Positions 18,580 to 25,544 of a DNA stretch of 64,000 nucleotides are shown here, in pieces. The translations under genes and the position numbers were made by a program. Each line of letters opens with the position of its first letter. The first letter of the stretch is position 1. The notes under the pieces were generated by a model. It was given only the letters and a program-made list of their open reading frames with translations, was not told the origin of the DNA and ran no database searches. The stretch is from Hylemonella sp. (GTDB lineage Bacteria > Pseudomonadota > Gammaproteobacteria > Burkholderiales > Burkholderiaceae_C): NCBI RefSeq assembly GCF_027532185.1, contig NZ_JAPZSV010000005.1, positions 62,001-126,000 of the forward strand, given 5' to 3'.

Positions 18580-21300
<2,721 letters not shown>

Positions 21301-21393
21301 GGGGCTCACCTGAAGAGAACAAAAGCAGGTGAGCGTCGTTGGGTCATCCAAGCCTGACAGCACCGGGGTGCCGCTGCAACGCTCCTTGGAAGA
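21301..21393 (-). ncRNA. S-adenosylhomocysteine (SAH) riboswitch controlling metH
   Basis: On the minus strand the leader contains the SAH aptamer core: CCAAGGAGCGTTGCAGC, a GCACC/GGTGC hairpin, CAGGCTTGG and CCAACGACGCTCACC. P1 pairs GAGCGT with ACGCTC and P2 pairs CCAAG with CTTGG; the bases differ from the well-known GAGCGC/GCGCUC but keep pairing. After the aptamer, GCTCACCTG (21326-21334) is a perfect complement of CAGGTGAGC (21304-21312), which holds the ribosome site 3 nt before ATG. Binding of SAH should hold GCTC in P1 and free the ribosome site. A -10-like TAAAAT (21400-21405) places the transcript start at the aptamer edge. Confidence 0.88.
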
Positions 21394-21399
21394 GCCGTG

Positions 21400-21405
21400 A
21401 TTTTA
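21400..21405 (-). promoter_or_regulatory. metH -10 box
   Basis: TAAAAT on the minus strand, about 7 nt before the 5' end of the SAH aptamer. The hexamer at the ideal -35 spacing (CTGTCG) is weak. Confidence 0.5.
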
Positions 21406-21484
21406 CGCGCTGTGTGACAACTCGACAGCTGGGGTACTGAATGAGGCCAGGCACAGGAGCCAGCCTCCGGATCGGGCCTGAGTC

Positions 21485-22096
21485 TCAGTAATAGAACAAT
21501 AGCCCCAAGGCAAAGTGATTGCCATCCTTCTTATCGCCTTGCTGATCCCGCAGTTGGTAGCTTTCGCGGATGTAGCGCAGGTACATCCCAAACAGGGGCT
21601 CACGGCCGGTCCGGGAAGGCTCACTGAAAAAGTATTGTGTTTCCAGCACTGCACCGCCCGATTGCGTGTAGGCGAAATGGTCGCCCTCTGCGTCGCCATG
21701 ACCCTGTATGTTGGTACTTTGTACTTTGCGGACCCCGCCCCCCAGGCGGAAGCGTTCCGTCACAGAGTAAAAACCCAGCAGCTCCACAGGGACCCGGGAA
21801 AACTTGTAGCCTCCGTTAACACCTTCGACGCTGTCGGTCTCATACCCCATGCTGCCCTGGAGAGAGAGTCTTTCCGTGATCCTGACATCGGCCCCCAGCG
21901 CCAAGACTACGCCCTTGCCGGTCTTGATATCCCAGGTGCCTGTCTGTTGATTGCTGGAGTTGACCCAGATTCCGTCAATCAAGGGCTGGCCGCCGAACCC
22001 ATAGCCGACGTTGGCATACATGCGCACCCGCGGCGCTTCCGCACTGGCGCCCAAGGCTGCGCAGGCGAGCCCCAGCCCGATCAAACTCTTTTTCAT
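21485..22096 (-). CDS. Outer-membrane beta-barrel protein, small
   Basis: 203 residues with a clear signal peptide (MKKSLIGLGLACAALGASA) and a very strong ribosome site (AGGGAGGAAA). The mature part alternates polar and hydrophobic residues in about eight strands (VRMYANVGYGFGG, LSLQGSMGYETD, RLGGGVRKVQ, GMYLRYIRESY) and ends in LGLLFYY, a barrel-type aromatic C-terminus. Size suits an eight-strand OmpW/OmpX/PagL-like barrel, but I see no PagL catalytic pattern and do not assign an enzyme. Base composition is visibly less GC-rich and less codon-biased than its neighbours, which hints at weak expression or later acquisition. Confidence 0.75.
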   Translation of the reverse strand: MKKSLIGLGLACAALGASAEAPRVRMYANVGYGFGGQPLIDGIWVNSSNQQTGTWDIKTGKGVVLALGADVRITERLSLQGSMGYETDSVEGVNGGYKFSRVPVELLGFYSVTERFRLGGGVRKVQSTNIQGHGDAEGDHFAYTQSGGAVLETQYFFSEPSRTGREPLFGMYLRYIRESYQLRDQQGDKKDGNHFALGLLFYY

Positions 22097-22236
22097 GGAT
22101 TTCCTCCCTAGCTCACATTATTCGAAAAGCCAGCGAGATTCTTCCATGCGTTGCGCTCCGGCTTCATACCTAAGCGGGTGTTTCGGCGAGAAGTGTTGTG
22201 CTTGCACCACCGCAAAGGGGGTGTATCAGCGAGGAC
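22097..22236. other. Intergenic leader of the beta-barrel gene
   Basis: No gene. It is comparatively AT-rich. It holds the strong AGGGAGGAAA ribosome site for the beta-barrel gene, and nothing that I recognise as an operator or terminator. Confidence 0.4.
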
Positions 22237-23274
22237 TTATTTCGCGTGGAGCGGAATCACGCGCCGTGGGTTCACGGCACGCGCGCGCAACTGACCGCAG
22301 CCGCCGTCCACATCCTGCCCTGCGGACTGGCGCAGTTTGGTGAGAATGCCGCGACGATGCAACTCGCGCGCCATCTCGGCAGCGGCCTCCTGCGTCGGTC
22401 GCTGGTAAGGCAAGCCATCGACCGCGTTGTAGGGGATCAGGTTGAGGATGGCGTACTTGCCGTGCAGGAGGCGCACCAGCGCTTCGATTTCCTCGGCGCT
22501 GTCATTGACCCCGGCCAGCAGGGCCCACTGGTACTGGATCGGGTAGCCGCTGAGCCGCGCGTATTGCTCTCCAGCCTCCGCCAGTTCCTCCGGCGTCAGC
22601 CGCGGTGCCCGCGGCAGCAGCTGCGCGCGCAGATCGGCACGCGTGGTATGCAGGGACAGCGCGAGCGCCGGCTTCACGCCCCCTTGCGGCAAGGCCTCAA
22701 ACACGCGCGGATCACCCACGGTGGAGAACACCAGATTCTTGTGTCCGATATTCCCGGCCGTGCCCAGCAGGTCGATGGCTTCGAGTACGTTGTCCAGGTT
22801 ATGCGCCGGCTCGCCCATGCCCATGAAGACCACGCGCCGCACCGGCTGGTATCGACGCGCCAAGGCCACCTGAGCCACGATCTCCGCGCTACCCAGCTGG
22901 CGCAGCAGCCCAGTGGTGCCGGTCATGCAGAAGGTACAGCCCACGGCACAGCCGACCTGTGTGGACACGCACAGTGCTGGCGTACGCCCTGGCGGCATGT
23001 GCACACTTTCCACGAGCTGGCCATCAGCCAGCGCGACAACCCGGCGCAGCGAGCCGTCCTCACCCGGATGCTCAGAATGGGTGCTGGCCAGCGCTGTCAG
23101 CTCACGTTCGATGTCGGGCAGTGCTGCGCGCAGCGTCGCCGGCAGGAAGTTCTCGATCGGCCGGCTGCCGTGGTCCTGCGGCAGCGCCTGTGACCACAGG
23201 CGCAGCACGCGGTGCTCGTGGCGGGGGTTGGCGCCCAGCGCCCGCAGGCGCCGGCGCAGGGTGTCGATCTGCAT
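22237..23274 (-). CDS. RlmN/Cfr-family radical SAM RNA methyltransferase
   Basis: 345 residues, slightly shorter than E. coli RlmN (384). The radical SAM cluster motif is CAVGCTFC; the glycine-rich SAM loop is FMGMGEPAHNLDNV; near the C-terminus DVDGGCGQLRA keeps the cysteine that in RlmN forms the covalent methyl-transfer intermediate, and the Met-side cysteine motif region KNLVFSTVGD is also recognisable. It should methylate C2 of an adenosine in RNA. Many Burkholderiales have both a canonical RlmN and a shorter paralogue like this, so target identity is uncertain. It follows terC with a 36-nt gap on the same strand. Confidence 0.85.
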   Translation of the reverse strand: MQIDTLRRRLRALGANPRHEHRVLRLWSQALPQDHGSRPIENFLPATLRAALPDIERELTALASTHSEHPGEDGSLRRVVALADGQLVESVHMPPGRTPALCVSTQVGCAVGCTFCMTGTTGLLRQLGSAEIVAQVALARRYQPVRRVVFMGMGEPAHNLDNVLEAIDLLGTAGNIGHKNLVFSTVGDPRVFEALPQGGVKPALALSLHTTRADLRAQLLPRAPRLTPEELAEAGEQYARLSGYPIQYQWALLAGVNDSAEEIEALVRLLHGKYAILNLIPYNAVDGLPYQRPTQEAAAEMARELHRRGILTKLRQSAGQDVDGGCGQLRARAVNPRRVIPLHAK

Positions 23275-23286
23275 GGCGGGTTCAAG

Positions 23287-23304
23287 GGGCCCGACGGTGG
23301 GCCC
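23287..23304 (-). terminator. GC hairpin between terC and the RlmN-like gene
   Basis: GGGCCC-ACCGTC-GGGCCC (minus strand) with partly complementary flanks lies in the 36-nt gap after the terC stop. There is no T-run, so it is at best a weak attenuator or a Rho-assisted stop. Confidence 0.35.
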
Positions 23305-23310
23305 GAACCC

Positions 23311-24282
23311 TTAGCTTACCCGCTTGTTTGCTGGCTGTTTGGACGAGGTCCGCACGCTCAGAACCATGGTCACGGCCAGAATGCCCACCACGACCGCGAG
23401 AGAGACCGCCACCGGGATCTTGTAGACATCAATCAGCATCATCTTGGTGCCGATGAAGACCAGGATCACGGCCAGGCCGTAGTTGAGCAGGTGGAAGCGG
23501 CTGGCCACGGCCTGCAGCAGGAAGAACATGGCGCGCAGGCCCAGGATGGCGAACACATTGCTCGTGAGCACGATGAAGGGATCCTGCGTGATCGCGAAGA
23601 TGGCCGGGATGGAGTCGACCGCGAAGATCACGTCCGTCAGACCGACCAGGGCCACGACCATAAGCAGCGGGGTGGCGATGCGCTTGCCGTTTTCGATGGT
23701 CCAGAACTTCTCGCCGTCGAAGCTGCGGCTGACCGGCATCACGCGGCGCAGCAGCTTGAGTGCGGGGTTGTCGTCCAGGCTGCCTTCCTTGCCTGCGGCC
23801 CACCACATCTTGAGGCCGGTCAGCACGAGGAAACCGCCGAAGACATAGAGAATCCAGTGGAACTGCGTCAGCAGCCAGCTGCCAACCAGAATCATCACCG
23901 TGCGCAGCACGATGGCGCCGATGATGCCGATCATCAACACCCGCTTCTGGTAGGCCGGCGGCACCGCGAAGTAGGTGAAGATCATCAGGAAGACAAAGAT
24001 GTTGTCGACCGCCAGGCTCTTTTCGATCAGGTAACCGGTGAGGAATTCGAGCGACTTCTCATGGGCAAGTTCGCGCGAGCCCGAGGTCTCATAGACCGCC
24101 CACCAGAGCAGTCCGTTGAAGAGGAAGCTCAGTCCGACCCAGATCATGGACCAGTTGAAAGCTTCCTTGACCCCGACTTCATGGGCACCCTGCTTGCGCA
24201 GGACGACGAAGTCGACGAAGAGCGCCGCCAGAACGAAGGCGACAAAAACGATCCACAGCCACATTGGCGCAATGCTTTGCAT
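23311..24282 (-). CDS. TerC/Alx-family membrane protein, probable Mn2+ exporter
   Basis: 323 residues with about nine membrane helices. Signature acidic motifs of the TerC family are present: WIVFVAFVLAALFVDFVVL at the start, EKSLAVDNIFVFLMIF, and GLTDVIFAVDSIPAIFAIT. The length and the insertion RSFDGEKFWTIENGKRIATPL match the Alx/TerC subgroup. E. coli Alx has been linked to manganese export, and here the gene sits behind a yybP-ykoY element, the manganese-sensing riboswitch, which supports the same role. Start ATG at 24282; its ribosome site AGG lies inside the predicted regulatory stem. Confidence 0.9.
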   Translation of the reverse strand: MQSIAPMWLWIVFVAFVLAALFVDFVVLRKQGAHEVGVKEAFNWSMIWVGLSFLFNGLLWWAVYETSGSRELAHEKSLEFLTGYLIEKSLAVDNIFVFLMIFTYFAVPPAYQKRVLMIGIIGAIVLRTVMILVGSWLLTQFHWILYVFGGFLVLTGLKMWWAAGKEGSLDDNPALKLLRRVMPVSRSFDGEKFWTIENGKRIATPLLMVVALVGLTDVIFAVDSIPAIFAITQDPFIVLTSNVFAILGLRAMFFLLQAVASRFHLLNYGLAVILVFIGTKMMLIDVYKIPVAVSLAVVVGILAVTMVLSVRTSSKQPANKRVS

Positions 24283-24447
24283 GAGAGACCTCGCTTGCAG
24301 TGTTGAACAACACCCGCAAGGTCTTGCCAGATCCGGGCGCGGCGCCTGGACCGGAATTCCGACCGCGGTGAGGCGGCGTATTGACGGAACCCCGTCGATC
24401 CGTGAACAGCGTGCGCTGCCTGGATCGCTTGACTACTCCCCTTGATG
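24283..24447 (-). ncRNA. yybP-ykoY (manganese) riboswitch upstream of terC/alx
   Basis: The minus-strand leader has both hallmark strands of the family: AAGGGGAGTAG (24433-24443) at the 5' end and GGCAAGACCTTGC (around 24315-24328) at the 3' end, with GTCAATACGCCG in between. Past the aptamer, AGACCT (24319-24324) is complementary to AGGTCT (24286-24291), which contains the ribosome site 6 nt before ATG; CTTGC/GCAAG and GTGTT/AACAC extend this hairpin. Mn2+ binding should keep AGACCT in the aptamer and expose the ribosome site, giving translational activation. A CACAAT -10-like box lies just upstream (24457-24462). Confidence 0.88.
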
Positions 24448-24494
24448 GGAAGCCTCATTGTGGGGCCGGCCGCTATTCCCTCGCTGACGTGGGG

Positions 24495-25544
24495 TCAGGC
24501 GGCGGCCCGGTAGAACGGCCCGGCGCTGCCCAGCGCGCGCGTCGGCAGGGGCGCCACCGCCTGATGGATGGCGCCGATGTGCTCTGGGGTGGTCCCGCAG
24601 CAACCTCCAACGATGTTGACCAGGCCCTCGGCCGCGAACTCGCGCAGCAGGCGGCTGGTGACCTCAGGCGTTTCGTCGAAGCCGGTCTCGCTCATGGGAT
24701 TGGGCAGGCCGGCGTTGGGATAACAGCTGATGTAGGTGTCGGGCGCCACGCGCGCCAGCTCCTGGATATAGGGGCGCAAGAGCGCCGCACCCAGCGCACA
24801 GTTCAGGCCGACGGCCAGCGGGCGCGCGTGGCGCACGCTGTGCCAAAAGGCGGTGACCGTCTGGCCACTGAGGATGCGGCCTGAGGCGTCGGTCACGGTG
24901 CCGCTGATGATCAGGGGCAGGCGTTCGCCGGATGCCTCGAAGAATTCGTCGATGGCGAACAGCGCGGCCTTGGCATTGAGCGTGTCGAAGATGGTCTCGA
25001 CCAGCAGCACATCGGCCCCGCCCTCCACCAGGGCCTCGACTTGTTCGTAGTAGGCCGCACGCAATTCTTCAAAAGAAGTGTTGCGCGCGCCGGGGTCGTT
25101 CACGTCGGGGCTGATGCTGGCCGTCTTGGGCGTGGGGCCCAGGGCGCCGGCCACAAAACGCGGGTGCTCCGGCGTGCTGTACTTGTCGCAGGCCGCTCGC
25201 GCCAGCCGGGCCGAGGCCAGGTTCATCTCGCGTGCCAGATGCGCCATCTCGTAATCGGCCTGGGCCACGGTGGTGGCACCGAAGGTATTGGTTTCGATCA
25301 GGTCGGCGCCCGCGGCCAGATAGCCCTCATGGATGTCACGGATCACATCGGGGCGCGTCAGGGAGAGCAGTTCGTTGTTGCCCTTGACGTCCTTCTGGAA
25401 GTCCTTGAAGCGCTCGCCGCGGTATTGCGCCTCGCCCAACTTGAAGCGCTGGATCATGGTGCCCATGGCTCCATCGAGGATGGCGATGCGGCGGGCCAGG
25501 ATGCCAGGCAGGGCCTGGGCGCGGGTGTAGTGCAGCGGCTTCAT
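24495..25544 (-). CDS. metH: Methionine synthase, homocysteine-binding half
   Basis: 349 residues forming only the homocysteine S-methyltransferase barrel of MetH. The start ([21 protein letters not shown]) matches the N-terminus of MetH. The zinc ligands are in GLNCALGA and [12 protein letters not shown], and [16 protein letters not shown]-type sequence lines the substrate pocket. The cobalamin, folate and reactivation modules are on the other metH gene 3.2 kb downstream, so the two products must act as a complex or in trans. The ATG lies 7 nt after a TACAAT -10 box, so the mRNA is probably leaderless, unlike the riboswitch-controlled partner gene. Confidence 0.93.

Follow-up and report, generated by a model that had tools for sequence, protein, structure and literature searches.

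Organization of the metH locus

The window, by which the whole 64-kb stretch of analysed DNA is meant, encodes the methionine synthase MetH in two separate minus-strand genes (Table 1), and a search of the whole genome has found these two pieces only. As no match to a MetE model reaches the cut-off in the genome (best 42.8 bits versus 929.95), MetH is probably its sole methionine synthase. An SAH riboswitch precedes the larger gene only, which begins with the ATG at 21300..21298; before the N-terminal gene no SAH aptamer has been found, and the window holds no second Rfam match. A sequence-only reading of this DNA had named metH as the gene downstream of the riboswitch, and the MetH family models NF007024 and TIGR02082 confirm this identity. 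The two halves are separated by genes on the same strand (21485-25544, minus), coding for a TerC/Alx-family protein, an RlmN-like radical SAM methyltransferase and a 203-aa protein without an NCBIfam family. A promoter scan of 21200-21600 has returned no sigma-70-like promoter on either strand.

Table 1. Features of the metH leader and the two metH genes, in window coordinates
Feature	Position	Strand	Basis or remark
SAH riboswitch aptamer, RF01057	21324..21393	-	cmscan, full-length match
Nested stem, 5' strand TCCAAG	21385..21390	-	Rfam alignment; covariation in relatives
Nested stem, 3' strand CTTGGA	21347..21352	-	Rfam alignment; covariation in relatives
Pseudoknot helix, 5' strand GAGCGT ("P1" of the sequence-only reading)	21379..21384	-	complement of 21331-21336
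Pseudoknot helix, 3' strand ACGCTC, its GCTC common to the anti-RBS arm	21331..21336	-	Rfam alignment
Anti-RBS arm GCTCACCTG	21326..21334	-	9/9 complementary to 21304-21312
CAGGTGAGC with Shine-Dalgarno AGGTGA	21304..21312	-	3 nt 5' of ATG; kept in relatives
metH, larger part (folate-binding, cobalamin-binding and reactivation regions), 906 aa	18580..21300	-	NCBIfam NF007024, 1523.7 bits, profile 343-1229
metH, N-terminal homocysteine methyltransferase part, 349 aa	24495..25544	-	NF007024, 523.6 bits, profile 8-339

The SAH aptamer

The SAH riboswitch family RF01057 (Wang et al., 2008; Edwards et al., 2010; both as cited in PMC7057144) has been matched by cmscan with Rfam 15 over its full length (model positions 1-78), 23 nt 5' of the metH ATG, with a score of 58.8 bits (gathering threshold 37) and an E-value of 2.8e-8 (3.5e-10 for the whole genome). 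No other Rfam family reaches its cut-off in the 64-kb window, the SAM/SAH riboswitch RF01727 included. The Infernal search that the sequence-only reading had named as a check on the SAH-aptamer core has thus returned the expected family, and the core letters are intact. Membership in RF01057 is further indicated by a pseudoknot helix in which GAGCG pairs with a CGCUC strand 3' of the nested stem, and by a methionine-cycle gene downstream.

The helix introduced earlier as "P1" pairs at all six positions (RNA GAGCGU/ACGCUC), but it is the pseudoknot helix and not a closing stem, because its strands follow the 5' and the 3' strand of the nested stem, respectively. The compensatory changes that had been presumed for both helices are found among relatives, in which the last pair of the pseudoknot helix is T-A, T-G or C-G, giving a change from T-A to C-G, and the nested stem covaries between A-T and G-C as well as between C-G and T-A. 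It is very unlikely that the RNA responds to both SAM and SAH, or that it is a degenerate aptamer devoid of regulatory effect; ligand binding is a prediction from sequence here, but the match is complete and high-scoring, the intact core is kept across the genus, and the class is reported to prefer SAH about 1000-fold over SAM (PMC7057144).

A hairpin over the metH ribosome-binding site

Between aptamer and start codon, the arms GCTCACCTG (21334..21326) and CAGGTGAGC (21312..21304) pair at 9/9 positions around a loop of 13 nt, so that in RNA letters an exact 9-bp hairpin GCUCACCUG/CAGGUGAGC covers the Shine-Dalgarno (SD) sequence. Both the perfect anti-RBS pairing and the overlap of its left half with "P1" had been read from the sequence and hold true, the latter in the form of a GCTC (21334..21331) that is common to the pseudoknot helix and the anti-RBS arm. 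The predicted energies amount to -13.4 kcal/mol for the intact hairpin, -3.6 kcal/mol for what remains without GCUC and -8.4 kcal/mol for the SD:anti-SD duplex, as nearest-neighbour values that take no account of the pseudoknot or of cotranscriptional folding. When the entire leader is folded without constraints, the SD stays inside the hairpin with an unpaired probability of about 0, a result that is uninformative on the bound state because the model cannot represent a pseudoknot. With the pseudoknot strands blocked, most SD letters still pair, their partners then being downstream sequence. The energies agree with a switch that exposes the RBS when the pseudoknot forms, subject to two reservations: pseudoknots are outside the energy model, and the SD finds downstream partners in the blocked fold. 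A role of the hairpin as transcription terminator has been considered and rejected as unlikely because no T-run follows 3' of it.

Conservation of the hairpin in metH leaders

Among 101 genomes searched (own genome, genus, family and order), 94 contain an SAH aptamer over the cut-off, with two copies in most members of the genus and family and one in most members of the order belonging to other families. All 92 aptamer loci that could be oriented lie upstream of metH (44) or ahcY (48). In 36 of the 43 scored metH leaders, GCTC anchors a stem that runs for 7-10 bp without interruption, and with one mismatch allowed a stem of at least 8 bp is present in every scored leader (43/43). When each leader was shuffled downstream of GCTC and the stem again anchored there, an equally long mismatch-free stem was reached by chance with p < 0.01 in 30/43.

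Covariation has been assessed in 48 distinct metH leaders, with GGTGR as the sole anchor of the alignment. Stem position 8 is T-A in 32, C-G in 5 and G-C in 3 leaders; it is paired in 41, compared with a shuffled mean of 30.8, and 0/5000 shuffles reach 41, although these shuffles ignore the relatedness of the leaders and covariation may therefore be overstated. Position 9 covaries more weakly (154/5000 shuffles), and at position 10 pairing does not exceed chance in the same 48 leaders. Positions 1-7 are nearly invariant, as is to be expected because one strand also serves the pseudoknot and the other serves the ribosome. The hairpin beside the start codon is preserved in the metH leaders of genus and family, and so is the GAGC/GAGU 3' of the SD, even though the SD requires no such letters. 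That the RBS complementarity arose by chance next to a genuine aptamer, with no switch at all, is a reading favoured by the commonness of anti-SD-like CACCT strings. Its probability appears negligible, given that every scored metH leader has such an anchored stem when one mismatch is allowed, that 30 of them reach p < 0.01 without a mismatch, and that one stem position covaries.

Three metH leaders (L093, Caenimonas; L099, a Comamonadaceae MAG; L102, Ramlibacter) keep the aptamer and have no good anti-RBS stem at the start codon, the region of which reads GCTCACCTTC or GCTCACCTCC; their expression platform may differ. In other relatives (L040, L064, L082-L084, L116, L119 and L124) a considerable distance separates the hairpin from the nearest candidate start downstream of it. 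Both groups count against the translational reading proposed below.

The ahcY locus and its expression platform

The own genome has its second SAH aptamer (50.4 bits) in front of ahcY, with metF ∼2.7 kb further along the same strand. This ahcY leader (L002, G000:C11:969212-969315, minus strand) contains the same anti-pseudoknot hairpin, GCTCACC/GGTGAGC, which leaves the ahcY RBS uncovered because the ahcY start is situated ∼56 nt further downstream. Anchored-stem scoring is weaker in ahcY leaders (8/46). Of 34 ahcY leaders of the family, 20 show a second, distal stem of 7 bp or more (100 shuffled runs gave a mean of 8.6 and a maximum of 15), and a strict search for such a stem of at least 7 bp has found none in the own-genome ahcY leader. 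ahcY and metH seem to have different expression platforms, and we tentatively consider, as a possibility that falls short of an even chance, that one genome couples the same SAH aptamer to two platforms, namely RBS masking at metH and a different, possibly undescribed one at ahcY, in which the equivalent hairpin stands upstream of the RBS and many relatives add the second distal stem. Tandem SAH aptamers before ahcY have been noticed in two genomes of the order (L041, G070:C93:83462-83683; L088, G099:C45:59324-59587).

The ahcY leaders also bear on the idea that the aptamer acts on transcription at metH, through early and possibly Rho-dependent termination, with the start-codon hairpin being secondary. 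Their equivalent hairpin, well upstream of an uncovered RBS, indicates that the same aptamer can use another platform; the metH hairpin, by contrast, encloses an SD 3 nt before the ATG without a T-run after it, and action on transcription is improbable here.

A putative SAH-ON switch of metH translation

From the aptamer match, the overlap of hairpin and pseudoknot, the conserved stem and its covarying position, a translational SAH-ON switch is the best-supported reading, in which ligand binding, switching and direction are inferred. It is very likely that this RF01057 riboswitch acts as a translational ON switch of metH, and on family, target gene and architecture the sequence-only reading is confirmed by the Rfam model, the MetH family models and the conservation in relatives. 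Without SAH, GCUC and the next five bases would pair with CAGGUGAGC, placing the Shine-Dalgarno sequence inside the 9-bp hairpin. With SAH, the aptamer would fold and its pseudoknot helix would take GCUC away from the anti-RBS hairpin; the 5 bp left over would not be strong enough to keep the arms together, and the ribosome could bind. This predicted logic fits the GCUC overlap and the calculated energies.

In the RF01057 class, SAH induces ahcY expression (PMC7057144). Together with the ahcY-metF locus and its own SAH riboswitch, a build-up of SAH would be expected, judging from the loci and this published class behaviour (PMC7057144), to raise both SAH hydrolysis and homocysteine remethylation, and SAH-to-methionine recycling would come under one signal.

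Relation to known systems and taxonomic spread

The metH element shares with the RF01057 SAH riboswitch the aptamer core, the pseudoknot, the target pathway and the placement in a 5' leader; unlike in the usual cases its target is metH, ahcY being commoner, and the aptamer itself is no different. The SAM/SAH riboswitch RF01727 is likewise a pseudoknot aptamer of the methionine cycle with translational control, but it constitutes a different family without a match here. It has been reported before metK in Rhodobacterales.

In the 2014 description of the SAH riboswitch regulon (PMC4239095), ahcY and metF form the core and the methionine synthase MetH is a taxon-specific member in Comamonadaceae. 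The novelty implied earlier for metH as a target is not supported in view of this publication, and the metH SAH riboswitch is a real and ordinary case, its family being known and its setting published. The anti-RBS hairpin is not described in the passages of that paper considered here, and its conservation and partial covariation are added by the present analysis. For specialists the metH switch holds no surprise; it offers a clean instance of a putative translational SAH-ON switch on the seemingly sole methionine synthase of a genome, which makes it good for teaching and an easy test case.

In a survey of 80 MetH loci from named genomes, with taxonomy taken from record titles, the aptamer pattern has been found upstream in 31. 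At the loci of Burkholderia, Paraburkholderia, Cupriavidus and Oxalobacteraceae within these 80 it has appeared at none, absences being approximate in a pattern search and uninformative for loci with short upstream sequence (e.g., L106, L111, L125, L129), which it misses. The pattern-positive Comamonadaceae comprise Ramlibacter, Caenimonas, Variovorax, Acidovorax, Rhodoferax, Polaromonas, Pseudacidovorax and others, joined by the Roseateles/Mitsuaria/Aquincola/Albitalea group and a few unclassified Burkholderiales, a spread that agrees with the regulon as given in PMC4239095.
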